From the NCBI GenBank assembly GCA_945903265.1, contig CAMDNQ010000029.1, forward strand, positions 1 through 36,101: DNA of 36,101 bases. The letters run 5' to 3'. This document shows positions 554-11,557 of the stretch, in pieces. Both the position numbers and the translations under genes were made by a program. Below the pieces are notes generated by a model. It worked only from the letters and a program-made list of their open reading frames with translations, ran no database searches and had not been told where the DNA came from. Position 1 is the first letter of the stretch; each line of letters begins with the position of its first letter. The DNA comes from Candidatus Sulfopaludibacter sp. SbA3 (lineage in GTDB: Bacteria; Acidobacteriota; Vicinamibacteria; Vicinamibacterales; UBA2999).

Positions 554-1963
554 CTATACCGTGAAGACCTTCAGAACCTCGTCGCCGTAATGGTTGATTA
601 CCTTCACCGCGATCGCAGCGTCAGCCGACGACACCGCCGCGACCGCCGCGCCTGCATCGACGAGCGTGCGCGTCGCAATTTCGACGGCATCCTGGTCGTC
701 GTCCACGACGATGACGCGGATGCCCGCGAGGCTGCCGACGGTGACCGGGCTCACATCGGGCGCCGCGTCACTCGGCAGAGCGCGCGCGGAGGCGGCGCGG
801 CTGGGCAGCAGGATCGTAAATGTCGTACCGGTGCCGGCTCCCCCGCTGTCGACTGCCACCGTGCCGCCATGCAGCTCCACGAGATCCTTCACGAGGGCGA
901 GGCCGATGCCCAGCCCCCCGTGACGCCGCGATGACGAGGGATCGGCTTGCTTGAAGCGTTCGAATACGGCTGGCATGAATGCCGCCGCGATGCCGTGCCC
1001 CGTATCGGTCACGGTGAGCCGGACCATGCCCTCGGAGGTCGAGAGTTCCGCCGTCACCTGCCCTCCGGCGTCGGTGAACTTCACAGCGTTCGAGAGAAGG
1101 TTCCACACCACCTGCTGCAGCCGGTCGGCGTCGCCGGCAAGCGGCGGGAGCTGTGGCCCCAGATCCGCGATCAGGCGCACTCCCTTGCTGTCGGCGGCGG
1201 GCCGCACGACGTCGATGGCGGCCAGGACGACGGCGGTCAGATCGACTGGCCCGATGTCCAGCCTGACCTTCCCCGCCGAGATCCTCGCCATGTCGAGCAG
1301 GTCCCCGATCAGCGTGAGCTGCGCCCTGGCGTTGCGATCGATGACGTCCATCGCTCGGCGGACAAGTGCGATGTCCGGACTCTCCCGTTCGATGAGGATA
1401 TGCGCCCAGCCGAGCACGGCGTTGAGCGGTGTCCGGATCTCGTGCGACAGCGTGGCGAGGAATTCGTCCTTCACCCGCGACGCGATTTCCGCGGTGGCGA
1501 GAGCCGTCTGGGCCGCCGCAATCCGGTTGCGCAGCTCGATCTCGGTGGCGACCCGCTCCGTGCAATCCTCGACGGTCGTGATGGTGCCGACGATGACGTC
1601 GCCGTCATACAGCGGGGCGATGCGGCCACCCTGCGGCATCTGCGCCGCGCCGGCCGCCCGTGCCGCCGGAAAGATGAAGCGGTGAAGCCGCTGCGACAGC
1701 ACCTGCACCTGCCCGCGCAGCGCGCCGGCATAACGGAGGTCGAGTCCGCGTTCGCGCAGGGAGGGGCACACCTCCATGAGAGGACGCCCGACGACCTCGC
1801 TGGCTGCCAGGCCGGTCGCGGCGGCCATCCATCGATTCCAGCCCCTGATGACGAGCGCCGCATCGGTGGTGACGACGCCGTCGGTGGCATGCTCGTCCAG
1901 CCAGCGGACAATGGCTGCGTCATGCGCTGGGGCAGCACGCGCGCCAGAGGGCATCGCGGTCAT
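554..1963 (-). CDS. PAS hybrid sensor histidine kinase with truncated receiver
   Basis: 469 residues starting at the ATG that overlaps the cheC stop (ATGA). A PAS-like region (about 20-140, WLDEHATDGVVTTDAALVIR) precedes a HisKA domain with LSHEIRTPL (phospho-acceptor His174). The HATPase shows an N-box (VVWNLLSNAVKF), a G1 box (VTDTGHGI) and a G2 box (GGLGIGLALV). From about residue 415 a receiver begins (VIVVDDDQDA), but after roughly 37 residues it is replaced by KVINHYGDEVLKVFTV and a stop. The receiver therefore lacks its phospho-acceptor Asp, the Thr/Ser and the Lys. It is the last gene of the che operon and probably feeds or tunes the pathway. The kinase core looks intact; phosphorelay through its own receiver should be impossible. 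Confidence 0.85.
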   Translation of the reverse strand: MTAMPSGARAAPAHDAAIVRWLDEHATDGVVTTDAALVIRGWNRWMAAATGLAASEVVGRPLMEVCPSLRERGLDLRYAGALRGQVQVLSQRLHRFIFPAARAAGAAQMPQGGRIAPLYDGDVIVGTITTVEDCTERVATEIELRNRIAAAQTALATAEIASRVKDEFLATLSHEIRTPLNAVLGWAHILIERESPDIALVRRAMDVIDRNARAQLTLIGDLLDMARISAGKVRLDIGPVDLTAVVLAAIDVVRPAADSKGVRLIADLGPQLPPLAGDADRLQQVVWNLLSNAVKFTDAGGQVTAELSTSEGMVRLTVTDTGHGIAAAFMPAVFERFKQADPSSSRRHGGLGIGLALVKDLVELHGGTVAVDSGGAGTGTTFTILLPSRAASARALPSDAAPDVSPVTVGSLAGIRVIVVDDDQDAVEIATRTLVDAGAAVAAVSSADAAIAVKVINHYGDEVLKVFTV

Positions 1964-2610
1964 GCCTGGGCCCGCTCCCACTCCTCGACTGCTTCCAGCA
2001 GGCGGGTGAGGGACGGAACGCTCAGGATGATGACGAGGGACCCGACGACCTCGGCGTCCTGAAGCCGGAACGCGGCTGAGACCACCAGCGCATACCTCAA
2101 CTCGGAATCGACGGCGATCAGGCGGTCCAGGACCAGGTGCAGACTCGTGACGTTGATGGTCGGAACCGCGAAGGTGATCGGGAGCTCGAGCAGGTTGCCG
2201 AACGACCCCATGCACGCGTTCAGCAGGATGTTGCCTGTTTCGGTCAGCACTTCGCGTGACGATGCGTCGAGTTTCAGTGGCAGCGCAGGCTCGTCGGTCA
2301 GCAGCTCCTTCAGCCGCGAGGCCGCCATCGGCTCGAGGACGAGCAGCGCGTCGCCCGCAACGGCGCCCGTAAACGCCTGATGGACGCTTGCGACGTCGTC
2401 GCGCGCCAGCGCGTCGAGGTGGCCCGTCAGCTCGTGCATCGGGTACACCGCGACATCCGGCACGTCCAGCAGCACCCGCTTTTGCGTGAGCGTGGACAGC
2501 GCGGCCGCGGCGCGGCCGAAGCCGATATTCAACAGCTCGACGAGCGCGTCGCGCTGGACCTCGCTAAGTTGCACGAACGGCACCGGCGAGTGTCGTCGAG
2601 ACGAGAGCAA
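1960..2610 (-). CDS. cheC: CheC-type CheY-P phosphatase
   Basis: CheC proteins dephosphorylate CheY-P through a pair of D/S-x3-E-x2-N-x22-P motifs. The first is present exactly (D-A-L-V-E-L-L-N, 22 residues, P). The second reads E-V-L-T-E-T-G-N, 22 residues, P, so its catalytic Glu and Asn are kept while the leading D/S is Glu. At 216 residues it has the usual CheC length. The start is uncertain: TTG at 2610 has a GAGG 9 nt upstream, and a GTG at 2583 is the alternative; both overlap the preceding regulator. No CheD, the usual CheC partner, is seen in the window, so this is probably the only signal-termination phosphatase of the operon. Confidence 0.85.
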   Translation of the reverse strand: MLSSRRHSPVPFVQLSEVQRDALVELLNIGFGRAAAALSTLTQKRVLLDVPDVAVYPMHELTGHLDALARDDVASVHQAFTGAVAGDALLVLEPMAASRLKELLTDEPALPLKLDASSREVLTETGNILLNACMGSFGNLLELPITFAVPTINVTSLHLVLDRLIAVDSELRYALVVSAAFRLQDAEVVGSLVIILSVPSLTRLLEAVEEWERAQA

Positions 2611-2938
2611 GGATCGCTGCCTCGTCGAGCGGCTTCGTCAGGAAACCGGCCGCGCCCGCCTCGTTCGCCAGTGCGTACGACGAGCTCTGGATGTCGGCGG
2701 AGACCACAATGACGCGGGCTGCAGCGTCGAGCTCCCGCAACTTCAGGAGCACATCCAGGCCGTACATGCCCTTCATCACCAGATCGAGCAGCACGATGTC
2801 GGGCTTCGCCACGACGTAAGACTCGAGCGCGGCTATCCCGTCCTGCGCTTCGACGACCTCGTACCCGGCGGCCTCGAGGATGCCGCGGGCGCGGCGGCGC
2901 GCCACCCCCGAGTCGTCGACGATCAGCACTTTGCTCAT
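2564..2938 (-). CDS. CheY-like single-domain response regulator
   Basis: 124 residues forming a lone receiver domain: acidic pair in VLIVDDSG, phospho-acceptor Asp in IVLLDLVMKG, switch Ser in VIVVSAD, conserved Lys in FLTKPLDE. It has no output domain. It lies between cheB and cheC, starting in an ATGA overlap with cheB. With a second CheY at the head of the operon (11062-11454), the pathway has two free receivers. One may act as output and the other as phosphate sink, but the sequence does not say which. Its direct neighbour CheC is a plausible phosphatase for it. Confidence 0.88.
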   Translation of the reverse strand: MSKVLIVDDSGVARRRARGILEAAGYEVVEAQDGIAALESYVVAKPDIVLLDLVMKGMYGLDVLLKLRELDAAARVIVVSADIQSSSYALANEAGAAGFLTKPLDEAAILALVSTTLAGAVRAT

Positions 2939-4005
2939 AACTGCTCCATGATGGCGTCCGCCATCTGTTCAATCGGTACGCTCCGGTCGCTCAGTCCGGC
3001 TTCGTCCACGCAGCGCGGCATCCCGTAAACGACGCACGACTCCTCAGCTTCCGTCAGGATCCGGCCGCCGCTCGCCTTGATGGATCCCGCGCCCTGGCGG
3101 CCATCCGCCCCCATGCCCGTCATGACTACCCCCAGCACCCCCGCGCCGACAATCTCCGCAGCCGACGTGAACATCACATCGACGGACGGACGGTGCGCCG
3201 TACCCCTGGGATCCAGGTCCAGATGCGCCGCCAGCGCGGCGCCTTCGCGCCGGAACGTGAGGTGGCGTCCGGCTGGCGCCAGCAGCACGACGCCGCCGGT
3301 GACCGGGTCGCCGTCTTCCGCTTCCTTCACCCACAGCGGCGACAGGTCGTCGAGTTTCTTGGCGTACACCTCGGTGTAGCCGACCGGCATGTGCAGCACG
3401 ATCGCCACGGGGACCGGAAAGTCGGCGGCCAGCCGCGGGATCACGAGCTTGAGTCCCTGCGGCCCCCCGGTGGAAATGCCGATCAGCACGAGCTCGACGG
3501 AGGGACGCGCGGGCCACGGGCGCGACGGGCCGTGAGCCGCGCCGTTAGCCGCCGCCGGAGCGACCTTGCGTACAACGGCATGGGCGGCAGCCTGCACCTT
3601 GGCGATGAGCTCGTCTGCCATCTCGAGGAGACGATCGCTGGCGAGCGCCGTCGGCTTCTGCACGAAGTCCACCGCGCCCGCGTCGAGGGCCGCCAGCACC
3701 TGGTCGCCGGCGCTGCTCGCGACACTGACGATGATGATCGGAACGCGTCGTCGCGCCATCTGCCTATGGACGAACGTCACGCCGTTCATCTCGGGCATGT
3801 TCAGGTCGCAGATGATCACGTCCGGCAGCGTGAGATCGGCCATCTCGAGCGCCTCGCGCCCGTCCCGCGCGGTGCCGACCACTTCGATGGCCGTGCTCTT
3901 CGACAGCATGTGCGAGACGATTTTCCGGACGAACGCCGAGTCGTCCACGACGAGAACCCGGATGACGCCGGTGGTGGAGGGTGTGTCCAATATGTGTGGG
4001 GTCAT
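2935..4005 (-). CDS. cheB: Chemotaxis protein-glutamate methylesterase/deamidase
   Basis: 356 residues from the ATG overlapping the cheR stop. The receiver occupies about 15-130, with phospho-acceptor Asp67 (IICDLNMPEMNG) and FVQKP for the conserved Lys. A linker rich in Ala and Pro (about 140-168) leads to the methylesterase domain. The catalytic triad is visible: Ser178 in GISTGGP, His205 in VLHMPVGY, Asp301 in MTGMGADG. It removes methyl groups from receptor glutamates and is activated by phosphorylation from CheA. Paired with cheR directly upstream, it shows that the pathway has methylation-based adaptation. Confidence 0.95.
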   Translation of the reverse strand: MTPHILDTPSTTGVIRVLVVDDSAFVRKIVSHMLSKSTAIEVVGTARDGREALEMADLTLPDVIICDLNMPEMNGVTFVHRQMARRRVPIIIVSVASSAGDQVLAALDAGAVDFVQKPTALASDRLLEMADELIAKVQAAAHAVVRKVAPAAANGAAHGPSRPWPARPSVELVLIGISTGGPQGLKLVIPRLAADFPVPVAIVLHMPVGYTEVYAKKLDDLSPLWVKEAEDGDPVTGGVVLLAPAGRHLTFRREGAALAAHLDLDPRGTAHRPSVDVMFTSAAEIVGAGVLGVVMTGMGADGRQGAGSIKASGGRILTEAEESCVVYGMPRCVDEAGLSDRSVPIEQMADAIMEQL

Positions 4006-4880
4006 GGCTTCACGTAAATGTAGGCGCCCGCGATGTCCTGCAGCTCGAAGCGCGTGGTGAGCCGCATGAGTGATTCCGCGGCCGCGACGCAGAGAAACGC
4101 CGGGGACGGCATCGTGTCGGCAAAGCCGTCGACGACGCGCGCGACCGTCGGATGGTCGAAGTAGATGAAGAGGTTCCGGCAGAAGATCACGTCCGACCCG
4201 GCGTGGGGGGCCCTCTCGGCGCTTCGCACAGCGTTGACGCGGGTCCACGATCTGACGCGCGCGTGGAGCTCGGGTCTCACCGTCCAGTCCTTCGAGCCTT
4301 CCACGGGCTCGAAATAGCGGTCACGCAGCGCCTCCGGAAGCTGGCGAAACGCGCGCGGTCCGTAGCGCCCGGCCCTAGCTCGCCGCAGCGCTGCTTCGCT
4401 CGCGTCGCTCGCGTGCAGCTCGATCGCCGCGCGCGAGAACCATCCGGCTTCCGTCAGCGCCATCGCGATCGACAGCGGTTCCTCGCCGGACGCGCACGGG
4501 AGCGACCAGATGCGAATCGGTCCCGCGCGTCGGGCGGCGAGTAACGGAAGAATCCCGTCGGTCAGCGCGCGGAGCTGATCGGATTCGCGCCAGAAGTACG
4601 TTTCCTGGACCGCCAGCGCGTCGATCGCGTGCATCCACTCCTGCTCGGCGGCGTCGTCGTACTTGAGCAGGTAGTAATAGTCGAGCAGCGAATCGAAGCC
4701 GCACTCCAGAGCCCGGCCGCAGAGTCGATCCTGCAGGAACATGAGCCGTTCCTCGCCGTAGAACAAGCCGGTGTGGACGTGCACCAGATCCCGAAGCAGG
4801 TGGAGCGACCGTTCGGGAACGCGCATCCTGCCCACGTCGTACGGCGTCCGGCCCCGCACCCCCGCCGCGACCACAGTCAC
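4002..4880 (-). CDS. cheR: Chemotaxis protein-glutamate O-methyltransferase
   Basis: 292 residues, starting with a GTG that forms a GTGA overlap with the HEAT-gene stop. The N-terminal helical CheR_N region (about 20-95) is followed by the SAM-binding domain. Its motif I reads IWSLPCASGEEPLSIAM, close to the usual ACSTGEEPYS. Later motifs include DVIFCRNLFIYFD, the typical CRNVLIYF-type segment. It methylates receptor glutamates using S-adenosylmethionine. The N-terminus starts only shortly before the first CheR helix, and no TPR or CheW fusion is present. The likely substrate is the soluble receptor encoded two genes upstream. Confidence 0.93.
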   Translation of the reverse strand: MTVVAAGVRGRTPYDVGRMRVPERSLHLLRDLVHVHTGLFYGEERLMFLQDRLCGRALECGFDSLLDYYYLLKYDDAAEQEWMHAIDALAVQETYFWRESDQLRALTDGILPLLAARRAGPIRIWSLPCASGEEPLSIAMALTEAGWFSRAAIELHASDASEAALRRARAGRYGPRAFRQLPEALRDRYFEPVEGSKDWTVRPELHARVRSWTRVNAVRSAERAPHAGSDVIFCRNLFIYFDHPTVARVVDGFADTMPSPAFLCVAAAESLMRLTTRFELQDIAGAYIYVKP

Positions 4881-6478
4881 GAGGCGTTCCCCGGCGGGTG
4901 CGGGAACGCCGCCACGGCGCGCGCGGCGGCGGCGAGATCGGAGTCAGGCGCGTCAACGTGCACGGCCGCCGCGCGGCGGGCCGCGCCGGGGTCGAGTGCC
5001 GACAGTGTCATCAGCGATGCGATACGCACATGGGGAGCGGGGTCCTCAGCGACGATCTGCGCCAGCGCGGCGATCGCCGCCCTCCCGCCGTGCGCCGCGA
5101 GACTGTCGGCCGCGAAGTACCGCACCCAGGGATCGGTGTCGCCGAGCGCCATGACCAGCGGAGCCTCCACGGGCGCCGTGACGCCACGCAGCGCGTGCGC
5201 CGCGGCGGCGCGGTTCCGCGGCGTCTCATCGCGCAGCGCCGCCAGCAGCCGTGGAACGGCGTCGGCTTCCGCGACCGAGCGGAGGCCTTCGATGGCCGCA
5301 CGCCGGACCTCTTGATGCTCGTCCTGCAGCGCATGAAGGATCCTCGCCGGGTCCGTGTCACCCAGCAGCGACGCCGCCACCCGCACGCCACACTCACGGA
5401 CCCATCGATCGGGATCACCGAGCGCCGCGACGATGCGCGGTTCGGTCCCGGGAGCGTCGATGGCGATGACGGACGCGACGGCCTGATGCCGCACCGCCGC
5501 GCTGGCCGACGAGAAGAGCGGAAGCAATGCGCCGAGCGCGTCTGGATCCGCGATGATGGCCAGCGACGCCGCCGCCGCGATCACGAGTTCGTCATCCGCC
5601 GCGGACAGCAGGTCGACGAGCGGCGGCACCGCCCGCCGATCGCCGAGCCGTCCGAGCAGCCGCGCCGCCGCGAGCCGCGCGCCGCGCTCCCCCGTCCGCA
5701 GCCGCTCGATGACCGGTGTGACCGCTGTTTGACCAAGAGCCAGGAGGGCGTCCGCAGCGGGGTCGTCCACCGCGGGCTCGCCCAGGGCTGCCACCAGCAC
5801 CGGCAGCGCGATCTCGCCCATCCAGCCGAGCACCACGATGACCGGCCGCACAGGCTCGTGGCGCCCGACGGCCGCCTCGATCAGGCGGGCCGCGCCTGCC
5901 GCCGAGACCGCCCTGCGTGACGCGTCGATCACACGTGCCTGCGCGTCGGCGGGTTCGCAGCGCTGGCAGATTCGATCGAGTGCCGCCGCAACGCGCGCCG
6001 CCTCGGCCGAGCCCTCATTCATCAGCGCCGCCAGCGGGACCACGGCAGCCGCGTGGGCGAGATCGCCAAGCGCGTCGATCGCTGCGGGGCGCAGCTGGTC
6101 CTGCGCCAGCAGGTCGATCAGGGTCGGCAGCGCCGCGTGGTGGCCGATGCGACCGAGCGCATCAATCGCAGGAAAGGCGAGGAAGAAATCGCCGGACCTG
6201 GCAAGGTTCGCGAGTTCGGGGAGAGCTTCAACCGCGCGCATGCCGCCAAGCGCTTCCACCGCGTGAAAGCGAACGTTCGCATCGTCATCCTGCAGCGCGC
6301 GCACGAGTGCGGGAATGGCGTCGGGGACCTTTAGCTCGCCCAGTGCAAGCGCGGCCTCGATACGCATGTCCGGGGACGGATCCCCGAGCTTGACGACGAG
6401 CGCCGCCACGACGTCCCCACGTGCGGCATCGGCAGTGCCGGCGGCGCGCGTGAATGCCTGGACGGCAGCGCCGCGCAC
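4877..6478 (-). CDS. HEAT-repeat protein within the chemosensory operon
   Basis: 533 residues made almost entirely of PBS-lyase-type HEAT repeats of about 30 residues (for example DPSPDMRIEAALALGELK and DDANVRFHAVEALGGM), more than ten in all. HEAT solenoids bind other proteins; no catalytic motif is seen. The GTG at 6478 is the first standard start, but the repeat fold (DSWRVRGAAVQAF) begins upstream. The frame stays open to a CTG at 6523 that overlaps the receptor stop as CTGA, matching the cheA joint. Initiation at CTG is therefore quite possible. Sandwiched between receptor and cheR with no gaps, it is probably a scaffold or adaptor of the signalling array. That role is inferred from position only. 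Confidence 0.8.
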   Translation of the reverse strand: MRGAAVQAFTRAAGTADAARGDVVAALVVKLGDPSPDMRIEAALALGELKVPDAIPALVRALQDDDANVRFHAVEALGGMRAVEALPELANLARSGDFFLAFPAIDALGRIGHHAALPTLIDLLAQDQLRPAAIDALGDLAHAAAVVPLAALMNEGSAEAARVAAALDRICQRCEPADAQARVIDASRRAVSAAGAARLIEAAVGRHEPVRPVIVVLGWMGEIALPVLVAALGEPAVDDPAADALLALGQTAVTPVIERLRTGERGARLAAARLLGRLGDRRAVPPLVDLLSAADDELVIAAAASLAIIADPDALGALLPLFSSASAAVRHQAVASVIAIDAPGTEPRIVAALGDPDRWVRECGVRVAASLLGDTDPARILHALQDEHQEVRRAAIEGLRSVAEADAVPRLLAALRDETPRNRAAAAHALRGVTAPVEAPLVMALGDTDPWVRYFAADSLAAHGGRAAIAALAQIVAEDPAPHVRIASLMTLSALDPGAARRAAAVHVDAPDSDLAAAARAVAAFPHPPGNAS

Positions 6479-6519
6479 GCGCCAGCTGTCGGCCGCGGGG
6501 GGCCCAGTGGGGTTCGGTG

Positions 6520-8673
6520 TCAGCGCGCGTGCCCGTTGCCCGTTTTGGCGGGCCGCTTCCTGCCGGCGACGACAGCCAGGGTGTCCGCCGGCATGACCAG
6601 GTCCGGAGTGCCGCCGCGCGTCAGCCGGACGCCTTCCGCGTTTCGCTCCGTGATCCGGCGGATGGCGGCAAACTGCTCAACGACATGCGCCGCCGCGGCA
6701 GACTGCGATCGGTTTGCGGTGGTGATCAATTTGATATCGCGCGCGGTGGCATTGGTCGCCGTGGACATCTCCTTCATCGTCCTCGACTGCTCCGCGGTTG
6801 CGCGGGCGGCCTGCTCGGCCTGAATGCGCATACTGTCCACGGCGCCGGCGACGGACTGCGCGGCGACCGCCTGTTCCGCCATTGCCCGGGTCACGAACGC
6901 GAGCTGTCGCGACAGGTCGAGAGACCCACGCGTGATCTCCTCGGCGGCGACGGCTTGCTCCGCGACGGCGCGGGAGGTGTTGACGGCGCCGCGCCGGACC
7001 AGTTCGCTCGCCTTAACCAGCTGCTGCGTGGTGGTGGCCTGCTCGGCGGTCGCTCTGCGCACCTCGACGGACAGTTTCGCGGTGCTCTGTGCCGCACGCA
7101 TGATCTCGCGAGCGGCGCGCCCCTGTTCGAGCACCGAGGCGGCCACGTCCTGAGAGATGCGGCGCATCAGGCCGCTGCTCTGCGCGACGCCGGCGGCGGT
7201 CGTCGCCTGCTCGGCCGTCGAGGCAGCCACGAGGCGCGCCTGCTCCACCGTCGCGAGCACCGCGGCCGACACCGAGCGGCCGGCGTTGCGCTGATCGTCG
7301 GCGGCGCGCGCAATCTGTCCGACGATCTCCGCCGTCTCGCCGACGCCGGCGAGAATCTTCCGCAGCCCCGCCGCGCCCTGCTCCGCAATGGCGTTGCTGT
7401 CATCGGCGACGCGCAGGCTCTCCGCGTTCGCCGCAATGGCATCCGTGGCCGCCTCCTGCAGTCCCTTGATGATGGCTGCGATGTCGGCGGTCGCCCGGGC
7501 GGACCGATCGGCGAGGTTGCGAATCTCCTCCGCGACCACGGCGAATCCGCGGCCCGCATCGCCGGCCCTCGCCGCTTCGATCGACGCGTTGAGCGACAGC
7601 AGGTTGGTGCGCTCCGCGATCAGGTTGATCGTGTCGACGATGGAGCTGATCTCGTTGGTGCGCTTGCCCATTTCGCGCATCACGCCGGATGACTGTCCCA
7701 TCGTGTCTCGGAGCCGGCCGATGCCCGCGATGGAGCGCTGCGCGGCCGCGCCTCCCTCTTCGGCGCCGGCGGCGACGCGTCGCGTCAGCTCGTCGGCGCG
7801 GCGCGCGAGGCCCGCGACCGCGTCAATCGATCGCTCCATGTCGCTGGCGGTCGCCTGCGCGCCGGTCGCAACGTCGTTGATCTGCCGCCCGTTCTGGGCG
7901 ACGCCCTGGACAGACCGGGACATCTGCTCGACCGATGTGGCGTTCTGATCGACCATCGTCCCGAGTTTTTCGGTCATGGCGCCGACCTGCTCGATGGACG
8001 TGGCCATCTGCGTGACCGCGGCCGCCGTCTGCTGGGCGGCCGCCGCCAGATCGTCGGCGTTTCCGGAGACGCCGCGCACCGACGTGCCCATCTCCACGAG
8101 CGCCGCGGCGGTCTCTTCAACGGACGTCGCCAGCGCTTCGGCGTCGCGCGTGACACCCCTGATGGAGGCGGCCATCTCGTTGATCGAGGTGGTCACCTCT
8201 TCCGCAGCCGTCGCCATCGCCGTCGTCGTGGTCGTGACGCTTTCGATGGAGGCGCTGGTCTGCCGCGCGGCTGCGGCGTTCTGCGTGATGAATGACGCGA
8301 GCTTCGTCGTATTGGAGGCGACCTCCTCAATAGACGCGGACATCTCATTCATGCCAGAGAGAATCTCCTCGGACGCCGTGGAGACGTCTTCAGACTGGCC
8401 CGCCGTCTCGCGCAGCGACGCTGCCATGCCCTCCATGCCGCCAAGCGCCTGGTCGAGCGACCGGATCTGCGCCTCGGCCCCTTCCCACACCTCGTCGGCG
8501 ATCCGTGCGAGGGCGTCGGCCGAGGCCTTCCCCTGCACGGGCGCGTCGAGTGCCGGGTCGGGGAGGCGCCCGGCGGGGCGCCTGAGACTCAGGTCACTGG
8601 TCTTGCCGTTGCCCTTGCCGTCGCCGTCGCCGATGCCGATGCCGCCGGGAGCGGTGCGTTTGGATGTAGCCAT
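6520..8673 (-). CDS. Soluble methyl-accepting chemoreceptor with 28-residue repeat arms
   Basis: 717 residues with no transmembrane segment and no recognisable sensor domain; a Gly-rich disordered start covers about 1-45. The highly conserved MCP hairpin tip ([20 protein letters not shown], then [16 protein letters not shown]) lies at about 350-385, almost exactly mid-protein. The N-terminal arm shows a 28-residue period ([60 protein letters not shown]). The C-terminal arm shows the same period (STAEQ, SVLEQ, ATAEQ, AVAEQ, AMAEQ, ATAEQ). 28 residues is four heptads. The arms are far longer than those of common receptor classes. It should form a cytoplasmic array with CheA and CheW. The start ATG overlaps the cheW stop (TAATG). 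Confidence 0.93.
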
Positions 8674-9149
8674 TAGCCTTCTCTGAGTGCCTCTGCAGGC
8701 TCGTTAAGTGCGGGGTCGATGGCGTTGAAGAGTTCTTCGACGTCAACGATGACGATCAGGCGGTCGCCCACGGTGGCGATGCCGGTGAGATAGTGCGCCG
8801 TGCCGCCGCCCAGCGCCTCGCCCGGGGGCGCAATCGCGTCCGCGGGTATGGTCAGAAATTCGCGGCACGCGTCGACGACCAGGCCGATGGTGCGCCCGCG
8901 CGCCTGCACGACCAGAAGACGGCTTCGCATGTCCGTCGCAATGCGGTCGAAACCGAAGCGCACGCGCAGGTTCACAGCCGGCACCACCTGGCCGCGCGAG
9001 AAGACGACGCCGTCCACGAACGGCGCGGCGTTCGGCACGCGCGTCACCTCATCGACAATCTCAACGTGGCCGATCTCGGCGCTTGGCAGCGCGTACGTCG
9101 TGCCGGCGACGAGGAACAGGATGTAATGATCGTCGTGGAAGGCGGTCAT
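8673..9149 (-). CDS. cheW: Chemotaxis coupling protein CheW
   Basis: 158 residues forming a single CheW (SH3-like) domain. The landmarks are [20 protein letters not shown] at the first strands, the [23 protein letters not shown] segment typical of CheW (PxxxxGxxxxRGxxxPxxxL), and VGLVVDAC-like [11 protein letters not shown]. It links receptor hairpins to CheA. It begins in an ATGA overlap with cheA and ends in a TAATG overlap with the receptor, so the three array components are translated in tandem. The C-terminal 20 residues beyond the domain are acidic and probably flexible. Confidence 0.93.
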
Positions 9150-11065
9150 GCGATCTTCCTCAATGGCGCGCGACGAGCCAACGCGGACGCATCGACGATC
9201 AGTACCGCCCGTCCGTCGCCCAGATCGGTAGCCCCGGCGATGCCCTCCACGCGAATGAGGGGATCAGCCGTGGCGCGCACCACGATCTCCCGCTGCCCCA
9301 CCACCTGGTCGACCACAAGCCCGAATGCGGCCGATCCATCCCCGAGGACGAAGGCATGCAGCCGCGACGGCGGCGCGTCCGTGATGCCGAGGAGATCCGA
9401 CAGGCGAATCATGCGCAGCGCGGCCCCGCGGTATTCCGTCACTTCGGATCCCTCGATACGGTGGATCGCCGCTGAGCTCAGCTCGATGACTTCATGCACG
9501 GCGAGCTGCGGCACAGCGAAGGTCTGGCCGCCGACGCGGGCGATGAGCGCTTCGATAATGGCGAGCGTGAGCGGGAGCTCGATGATGAACCGCGTTCCCG
9601 AACCCGGGGTCGTGACCATGCGGAGCGACCCGCCCAGTTCGTGCACGCGGTTGCAGACGACGTCCATGCCGAATCCGCGTCCGCTGAGATGATCCGATTT
9701 CTCGCGGGTAGAAAATCCAGGACTGCAGATGACATCCAGCAGCGCCGCGTCATCGCCGTCCGCGGGAACAGGGAGGGCCAACTGTCGGGCGCGCTGCAGA
9801 ACGCGAGGCACGTCGATGCCGCGGCCATCGTCGGCCACTTCAATGGCCACGAGGTTTCCAGCGGCGGATGCCCGCAGCCGGATCGTGCCATCGGCAGGCT
9901 TTCCGGCGGCAACCCGTTCGTCCGCGGGCTCGATTCCGTGGCTGACCGCGTTGCGCACCAGCTGCAGCACCGGGTCCATCATGCGTTCCACCAGGAACTT
10001 GTCCATCTGCGTGTCTTCGCCGGCGAGCTCCACCGTCACCCGCCGGCCCGTGTCGCGGGCCATGTCGCGGACGGCAAACGGCATACGGCCCAGGATCTCG
10101 CCGACCGGCACCAGACGCACACGCATGACGCCCTCGCGAAGCGCGCGTACCTGCCGTTCGATGGCGGTCATCTGTTCCTGGATCGCCCGCCATCCCTGAG
10201 ACGGCGCGTGGCGCTGCAACGATGCGAGCGTGTCTGTGAGCCTGGCGCGCAGCATGACGAGATCGCCGATCATGTGCATCAGCTCGTCGAGCCGCGCCAG
10301 GTCGACGCGGACGTAATGACTGGGCGGGGCGAGTGCACGCGCACCTGGCGATTCCCCGGACTCCGGCCCAATCGGAAGCAGGGCCCGCCCGGGGATCCGG
10401 GTGCAGACGATGCCGTCATCACGCCAGGCGGCGACGGTCGCATCGTCCAGTTCGCCGGCCAGCAGGAAGTGAAACGAGACGCCGTGCTCGGTCACGCTGG
10501 GCGTCGCGCGGAGGATGACACCGGCGCTGCTCAGTCGCTCCCGCACCGCGTTGACGTTGATGCCCCGGGCCGAGAGCGCCGCGGAGGGCTCGAACATGCA
10601 TGTCCAGTCGGCCGCCGGATCGACGCTGTCGCCGGCTCGCCGCCCATTGCCGGGGATGCGTACAGGCGTCGGCTGAGAGAGAAGTCCGCGCAGGCTCGCG
10701 AGTGGCCCCGCGCTGTCCGGCGGATCCGACGAGTCCCGGCGCGCAGTAATAGCGCGCTCGAGCGCGGCGGTGCCCTCGATGAGCACTTCGATGCCGTGGG
10801 TCGTCAGCGGCACATCGCCATCCCGAATCGCTCGGAGATAGCCTTCCATTTCATGGGAGAGCAACTCGCCGTCGCGGTCCTCGACCATGCCGGCGAGACC
10901 CTTCAGGGAGTGAACGCTCCGGAAGAGTTCCTCTGTAATAACCGCGTCGGGACGTTCCCGGCCAACCGAGGCTTCGAGCGCCAGGAGACCACGCCTGATG
11001 GCGGTCAGGTGCTCTTCGCACTCGACGAAGTACTCCCCGATGAACTGGTCGCGGAAGTCCGTCAG
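9146..11065 (-). CDS. cheA: Chemotaxis histidine kinase CheA, probable CTG start
   Basis: About 639 residues. The HPt domain carries His52 (FRSVHSLKGLAGM). P3 dimerisation and P4 ATPase follow, with N-box LVRNAVSHGIEP, G1 VADDGRGID and GFSTREKSDHLSGRGFGMDV. A CheW-like P5 lies at about 508-638. The linker between HPt and P3 includes a P2-like stretch (WTCMFEPSAALSARGINVNAV). Start: no ATG, GTG or TTG occurs in frame between the cheY stop and a Met at position 60, beyond the active His. The CTG at 11065 overlaps the cheY stop as CTGA behind a G-rich stretch, so CTG initiation is nearly forced. It phosphorylates the operon's CheY proteins and CheB. Confidence 0.93.
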   Translation of the reverse strand: MTDFRDQFIGEYFVECEEHLTAIRRGLLALEASVGRERPDAVITEELFRSVHSLKGLAGMVEDRDGELLSHEMEGYLRAIRDGDVPLTTHGIEVLIEGTAALERAITARRDSSDPPDSAGPLASLRGLLSQPTPVRIPGNGRRAGDSVDPAADWTCMFEPSAALSARGINVNAVRERLSSAGVILRATPSVTEHGVSFHFLLAGELDDATVAAWRDDGIVCTRIPGRALLPIGPESGESPGARALAPPSHYVRVDLARLDELMHMIGDLVMLRARLTDTLASLQRHAPSQGWRAIQEQMTAIERQVRALREGVMRVRLVPVGEILGRMPFAVRDMARDTGRRVTVELAGEDTQMDKFLVERMMDPVLQLVRNAVSHGIEPADERVAAGKPADGTIRLRASAAGNLVAIEVADDGRGIDVPRVLQRARQLALPVPADGDDAALLDVICSPGFSTREKSDHLSGRGFGMDVVCNRVHELGGSLRMVTTPGSGTRFIIELPLTLAIIEALIARVGGQTFAVPQLAVHEVIELSSAAIHRIEGSEVTEYRGAALRMIRLSDLLGITDAPPSRLHAFVLGDGSAAFGLVVDQVVGQREIVVRATADPLIRVEGIAGATDLGDGRAVLIVDASALARRAPLRKIA

Positions 11066-11454
11066 GCGTGCCCCGCCGACATTGGCAGTTGAAGGAGCTC
11101 GTTCGCGCGAGCGGCGAGCGCCGCGGGCACGAAGGGCTTGGTCATGAATGCGGTCGCGCCGGCCTGCAGGGCGGCGGCGCGGTGGGCGTCGTCTCCGCGG
11201 GTCGTGAGCACGATGACCGGGACCCCCCGAAATTTGGCGTGGCTGCGCACGAAAGCCAGCACTTCGAGTCCGTGCAGATCGGGCATGTTCAGGTCCAGGA
11301 TGATCAGGTGCACCGGGCCCAGCGCGAGGCGCTCGATGGCCTCCAGGCCTGAACCGGCCTCGACGAATTCGGCCCCTCCCGCGAGGTCGGCAAGCGAAGC
11401 CCGAACCATGCGGCGGATCGTGGGAGAATCGTCGACAATCAGAACCTGATTCAT
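11062..11454 (-). CDS. cheY: CheY-like response regulator, first gene of the operon
   Basis: 130 residues from the ATG at 11454 (MNQVLIVDDSPTIRRMV). The acidic pair is in VDDS, the phospho-acceptor Asp in LIILDLNMPDLHG, the Thr in IVLTTRGDD and the Lys in FMTKPFVP. This is a complete stand-alone receiver of CheY/PilG type. An in-frame upstream ATG at 11499 is rejected because the fold begins at MNQVL. It is the promoter-proximal gene of the che operon; the promoter should lie in the roughly 100 bp shared with the divergent hydrolase gene. A TATACT (11466-11471, minus strand) is a candidate -10, but no good -35 accompanies it. Confidence 0.9.
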   Translation of the reverse strand: MNQVLIVDDSPTIRRMVRASLADLAGGAEFVEAGSGLEAIERLALGPVHLIILDLNMPDLHGLEVLAFVRSHAKFRGVPVIVLTTRGDDAHRAAALQAGATAFMTKPFVPAALAARANELLQLPMSAGHA

Positions 11455-11557
11455 GCGGTGCCCTGAGTATAAGGAGCCGCGATTTCCCGGGATGTGCAAA
11501 ACAGGACATCAAGTGTTCTGTGCCAGCTCAGCCACAAAGAAGAGCCAAGGAGCAGAT

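Follow-up and report, generated by a model that had tools for sequence, protein, structure and literature searches.

A soluble 88H-length chemoreceptor with 28-residue repeats in both coiled-coil arms, encoded in a che7-type operon

Soluble receptors and the che7 gene order

Soluble chemoreceptors (MCPs) and operons of the che7 type are both known already. The receptor Mcp7 of Myxococcus xanthus is a soluble protein of 821 aa without HAMP domain or transmembrane (TM) segment, whose signalling domain occupies residues 317-534. The locus numbers of this species give the order CheY7, CheA7, CheW7, Mcp7, one further gene, CheR7 and CheB7, and all its MCPs except two are assigned to length class 40H (available part of PMC3945109). 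The M. xanthus HEAT protein Cpc7 binds CheY7, according to the available part of PMC11514114. FrzCD of the same species is a soluble MCP with a DNA-binding N-terminus and two HAMP domains that forms arrays on the nucleoid, while cytoplasmic receptors of R. sphaeroides and V. cholerae form double-layer arrays with the layers 27-35 nm apart (both as given in partial accounts of these systems). MiST3 distinguishes twelve receptor length classes, from 24H to the longest, 64H (PMC6943060, in the part available). The accessible text of PMC6628036 mentions 'a few rare receptors' exceeding 32 paired heptads; receptors of greater length are thus already on record.

The window analysed here is a stretch of 36,101 nucleotides from Candidatus Sulfopaludibacter sp. 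SbA3 (Acidobacteriota; contig CAMDNQ010000029.1). Its minus strand carries an operon in the order CheY-CheA-CheW-MCP-HEAT-CheR-CheB-CheY-CheC-PAS kinase. The genes code for a CheY-type receiver (11062..11499; Response_reg 86.8 bits), CheA (9146..11065; Hpt, H-kinase_dim, HATPase_c and CheW domains), CheW (8673..9149; CheW 106.7 bits), the receptor (6520..8673), a HEAT-repeat protein (4877..6478; HEAT_2 180.8 bits), the methyltransferase CheR (4002..4880; CheR 134.1 bits), the methylesterase CheB with a receiver (2935..4008; CheB_methylest 183.9 bits, Response_reg 83.7), a second CheY-type receiver (2564..2938; Response_reg 86.3 bits), a CheC-like phosphatase (1960..2610; CheC 27.2 bits, cut-off 22) and a PAS histidine kinase (554..1963; PAS, HisKA and HATPase_c). 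Three of these starts are predicted ones: the frame of CheA is open up to 11512 but overlaps CheY, that of CheB opens at 4248 and that of the kinase further upstream. The HEAT gene opens with GTG, 41 nt past the MCP stop (region 4877-6520), and the residues DSW, which match the HEAT proteins of relatives, are found just upstream of this GTG. The end of the kinase (554-700) reads like a receiver, although Pfam matches none there; by eye, its relative in locus L034 runs on into a receiver. An open frame at the contig end (1-486) contains ATPase-like text (DNGVGF) and has no Pfam match.

The first seven genes repeat the Che7 order CheY-CheA-CheW-MCP-x-CheR-CheB and include a HEAT protein, the two systems being compared by gene order and description within the available sources. 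Cpc7 is presumably the product of the gene between Mcp7 and CheR7. The M. xanthus che7 gene order is now placed in the window genome, in its relatives and on a Gemmatirosa plasmid. The window genome (98.9% complete) has a single MCP found and a single CheA, which holds the only H-kinase_dim match of the genome. No match to FliG was found in this genome, PilT scores 457.7 bits (cut-off 319.1) and PilB-like ATPases stay below their cut-offs. Since the sole MCP found has no recognisable sensor, the function of a chemoreceptor rod can be addressed here in an uncomplicated setting.

The receptor rod and its 28-residue repeats

The receptor gene (6520..8673, minus strand) codes for a protein of 717 aa. 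With both the MCPsignal domain (PF00015, 131.5 bits against a Pfam cut-off of 34.6) and the hairpin tip present, it is a member of the MCP superfamily. A first-pass annotation, made from the sequence letters, had placed the tip almost exactly mid-protein, and it lies there, at G371/D372. The tip region (residues 344-399, 7477..7644), made of the first block of each arm, has a mean pairwise identity of 0.96 (N block) and 0.95 (C block) among four orthologues. Prolines are found at residues 45 and 690 and nowhere in between, so that the N arm (residues 46-371, 7561..8538) and the C arm (residues 372-689, 6607..7560) are both Pro-free. The absence of a TM segment and of a sensor domain, also read from the letters, is borne out: Pfam gave no match to a sensor domain or HAMP in this protein, and hydropathy predicts no TM segment, the maximal 19-residue mean being 1.09 against 2.5-3.0 in three TM receptors. 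In these traits and in its mid-protein signalling domain the receptor resembles Mcp7 as described in the available text.

The suggestion that the rod might separate two signalling ends is not supported. A motif scan of the receptor found a single tip, both termini lie at the far end of the rod, opposite the tip, and in one membrane-bound relative (L037) the far end continues into HAMP and sCache_4. A second MCPsignal match, over the N-arm repeats, reaches 24.5 bits and is below the cut-off. Together with the single tip motif, this sets the protein apart from a receptor with two signalling tips such as DosM. An AlphaFold2 model of the window receptor plus its orthologue L003 (mean pLDDT 55.7, each arm broken once, at 203-207 and 518-524) was judged too poor for use.

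Scored against shuffles that move residues only within their own heptad position, the autocorrelation of either arm has a peak at lag 28 (z 4.9 in the N arm and 4.1 in the C arm; 5.1 and 3.7 when rerun with other arm borders). Peaks also appear at lag 56 and, in the N arm, at lag 84, and none at 7, 14, 21 or 35. The cores that the first-pass annotation had seen to recur every 28 residues on either side of the tip are found as described: seven start in the N arm at residues 113, 141, 169, 197, 225, 253 and 281, and the C arm, for which at least seven had been counted, carries an E/D/Q-Q pair (DQ, then six times EQ) at the identical position of blocks 4-10. Among 16 comparison MCPs, three from E. 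coli and thirteen from the phylum of the window, z at lag 28 does not exceed 2.9 for the N arm or, in the twelve whose C arm is long enough, 2.8 for the C arm. The che-operon relatives give values of 3.9 to 8.6, the Gemmatirosa N arm excepted (1.4 at lag 28, which is no peak, and 3.9 at lag 56). The trait is partly shared by 64H-length receptors, with 1.6 to 4.4 in the N arm and 0.6 to 6.6 in the C arm, where the scored segments of SBP fusions extend beyond the coiled coil. The N-arm value of the partial gene L035, whose tip is at residue 51, was left out as a slicing artefact. The periodicity is therefore above that of ordinary MCPs, and common to a group of long ones that includes the sister-group and 64H-length receptors. 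The literature search, in the text that it covered, found no paper on a 28-residue repeat rule for receptors.

Rod length was measured with a tip ruler: each protein was divided into 28-residue blocks, numbered from the tip towards the far end. Blocks 4 to 11 hold one unit per block with zero slip in both arms of the window protein and of its three full orthologues (in the window protein residues 64-287, 7813..8484, in the N arm; residues 456-679, 6637..7308, in the C arm), and the hydrophobic heptad phase of the window receptor holds out to block 11. Eleven blocks per arm in unbroken register make 308 residues or 44 heptads, that is 88H, and a rod of about 46 nm at 10.5 A per heptad pair (available part of PMC6628036); the entire Pro-free stretch would fit about 46 heptads per arm. 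The first-pass annotation had put the rod at roughly 90 heptads, beyond the common classes, in both arms through expansion by 28-residue units. The block register and the periodicity agree with the expansion and the rod is longer than the named classes; its length is corrected to 88H.

The C-arm distance between tip and end motif is 126 residues for E. coli Tsr (36H) and 140 for many receptors (40H); it is 224 for 64H-length receptors and reaches 252 for those of sister group f16 (72H). Where a HAMP was found, its distance to the tip (130, 228 or 256) is a constant 4 above the C arm, except in L023 and L026 (201 against a C arm of 140), where a HAMP may have been missed or a second one be present. 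The survey lacks 24 loci, which were repeated frames, loci fetched for other families or loci with no frame that fits the pattern. No standard short class fits the window receptor, as had been anticipated: it lies outside the MiST3 classes (12 to 32 heptads per arm) with 44 per arm, by the Tsr-calibrated tip ruler and not by class HMMs. It may also differ in length from Mcp7, all M. xanthus MCPs but two being 40H in the available part of PMC3945109. The analysis adds two lengths, 72H and 88H, that lie beyond the MiST3 classes, and it suggests the 28-residue rule.

Relatives and candidate adaptation sites

The full operon order is found also in loci L003 (genome G111) and L034 (G040) and on a 1.04-Mb plasmid of Gemmatirosa kalamazoonensis (L072). 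G049 has CheY-CheA-CheW-MCP at one contig end (L036) and MCP-HEAT at another (L035), two ends of one receptor gene that were used separately. L003 and the G111 match are one contig, counted once. This contig, JAIEMQ010000013.1, is contig C5 of G111, a genome from the family of the window genome, and its title 'Cyanobacteria bacterium' is probably wrong. Among the 193 genomes of the class, homologues of more than 50% identity and (near) full length occur in 4, one being that of the window and another G049 with its two pieces. For the phylum, a set that overlaps the former, the count is 3 of 396. All four HEAT proteins of the relatives have an N-terminal PAS region by tblastn, which is unmatched in the HEAT protein of the window. 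By Pfam, in the two scanned, PAS scores 29.9 bits in L072 and 22.7 in L003 (cut-off 23.1).

Homologues with other repeat numbers were searched for, and receptors of 72H and 64H length were found. The core CheY-CheA-CheW-MCP-HEAT-CheR-CheB is present in all seven f16 loci examined, from 12 f16 genomes with a match, with a 338-aa ORF also between CheW and MCP in L037. In these seven loci the HEAT protein had no match to PAS, and neither CheC nor a PAS kinase was matched. The f16 membrane receptors (L008-L019, L037-L042, L046, L047) share the 28-residue unit with the window receptor; their arms are shorter, at 36 heptads each (72H), a length likewise absent from the MiST3 list of twelve. The only one scanned with Pfam, that of L037, has sCache_4, HAMP and MCPsignal; the soluble clade is therefore two blocks per arm longer and has no sensor of the sCache_4 type. 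The 64H-length MCPs of the same phylum, mostly found through similarity to the window receptor, also have the 28-residue unit, and E/Q pairs in matching register. Unlike the window receptor they have 32 heptads per arm and the tip AQAGE, with arms of 224 residues and HAMP, where found, 228 from the tip.

Candidate methylation sites were sought with the methylation consensus, which on Tsr as control finds four pairs, ending at 297, 304, 311 and 493, the methylated sites of that receptor. An alignment of two 36H and seven 40H receptors has a 14-residue gap on either side of the tip. Once this gap is taken into account, E493 of Tsr aligns with C-unit position 4 and its E304 with N-unit position 11; the seven 40H receptors keep an E/Q pair at these two positions only in part. 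The recurring E/Q pairs of the long receptors begin at C 4 and N 10, in the register of Tsr E493 and E304. A pair is found at C 4 in 93% of 28 blocks of the 88H receptors, 78% of 60 (72H) and 75% of 48 (64H), and at N 10 in 61%, 38% and 35%, respectively; its frequency at the median block position is 0. Among the twelve receptors counted as 64H, four (L049, L062, L066, L095) have the end motif 225-228 residues past the tip and none at 224. In the 72H receptors N position 17, in the register of Tsr Q311, is the commonest place of an N-arm pair (57%). The loose consensus occurs 12-15 times in the four 88H proteins against 5.1-6.3 expected, and from none to 0.6% of 500 shuffles were as high. The strict one exceeds heptad shuffles in two of the four (7 against 2.4 in the window receptor, 8 against 2.1 in L034) and shows no excess over them in L003 and L072.

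The register match and the consensus excess together make the 28-residue unit look like a repeated adaptation segment, in which most 28-residue steps would carry a candidate methylation site. The first-pass annotation had thought of the rod itself as a possible sensor; the blocks resemble repeated adaptation segments rather more. The CheR and CheB genes share the operon with the receptor. Pairs in this register are not necessarily modified: the Tsr pair one unit ahead of E493 is not known to be methylated.

The duplications that gave rise to the blocks are old, since no 84-bp tandem array is left in the DNA of the window gene, where only one pair of 22 nt, 84 nt apart and 77% identical, was found; a recent tandem array is ruled out. 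Each of blocks 4-11 has its best match in its own orthologue (8/8 in either arm). When blocks of equal level are compared, the similarity matrices of the two arms correlate with r 0.66 (p 0.017; 0.13 and -0.38 one block off), and in blocks 5-10 alone the value is 0.20 (p 0.26); this gives no more than a hint that N and C blocks were duplicated jointly at each level. An origin of the repeats from HAMP was rejected on the zero HAMP match and the Pro-free rod. A far-end cap serving as docking site was likewise rejected, blocks 10-11 being no better conserved than the middle.

Possible roles of the long rod

The explanation preferred here, held with moderate confidence, is that of a soluble, sensorless 88H receptor of a che7-type and probably non-flagellar pathway, built from duplicated adaptation segments, packed in arrays and receiving its input in trans. 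Receptor dimers would assemble into four-helix rods of about 46 nm, with a tip that may bind the CheA and CheW of the operon and a far end that would carry both termini. Both arms would have grown through old duplications of the 28-residue segment and, if this segment is the adaptation region, candidate CheR/CheB sites form ladders along both. By analogy with FrzCD and the receptors of R. sphaeroides and V. cholerae the protein should form arrays, most likely cytoplasmic ones. Rods of 46 nm meeting at their far ends would set the layers roughly 80-90 nm apart; the 27-35 nm spacing given for the two latter species in the accounts available is less than one such rod. Input may come from PAS-bearing partners, a kinase or CheR/CheB activity, and CheY could relay the output to the HEAT-repeat partner, with type IV pili as a further possible target.

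Across residues 38-685 of the window receptor, a span of 648, the alignment of the four full-length orthologues contains no gap, even though identity to the window receptor is 46-59%; receptor length is conserved. A length frozen while the sequence varies is also what a mere spacer would show, with the extra blocks only setting a distance, between the baseplates of a double-layered array or from the tip to a far-end partner, and the E/Q pairs as by-products of duplication. The double layers of cytoplasmic arrays in other species, as partially reported, fit this possibility. It is nevertheless rather unlikely, the constancy of the E/Q pair at C 4 in the 88H receptors going beyond the need of a spacer.

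It is improbable that the rod is instead tethered by its short far-end tails to DNA or another scaffold, as precedent in the available account of FrzCD and its N-terminus would have it. The N tail carries a net charge of +2 to +6 in three of the four orthologues and so does the C tail in three of four, yet the fourth tail is neutral at either terminus, and the tails are conserved neither in sequence nor in length. Moreover the two HAMP domains of FrzCD, between its N-terminus and the signalling domain, have no counterpart in the window receptor by Pfam. Drift in length, through coiled-coil repeats that multiply easily and add blocks without a role, would account for the same kind of unit in the 64H- and 72H-length relatives and is very improbable given that block identity is kept across species with no indel.

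To return to the duplicated adaptation segments, they suggest a rule open to testing in any collection of genomes: above 40H, receptor length rises by 28-residue steps in both arms. A speculative extension, thought quite unlikely as a whole, is that this quantum grows long receptors from 40H to 64H, 72H and 88H, in both arms at once and with methylation sites added each time. In the sensorless 88H form the ladder itself might then be the input, reading no ligand and only the balance of CheR and CheB (SAM supply, CheB phosphorylation), reported via CheA from a very thick cytoplasmic array.

The presence of the complete operon on the Gemmatirosa plasmid suggests that it may move between genomes. 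Two 64H-length MCPs (L052:1132-4281 and L094:700-3552) have SBP_bac_5 (226 and 224 bits) fused behind the coiled coil, an odd position for a domain that is usually extracellular.
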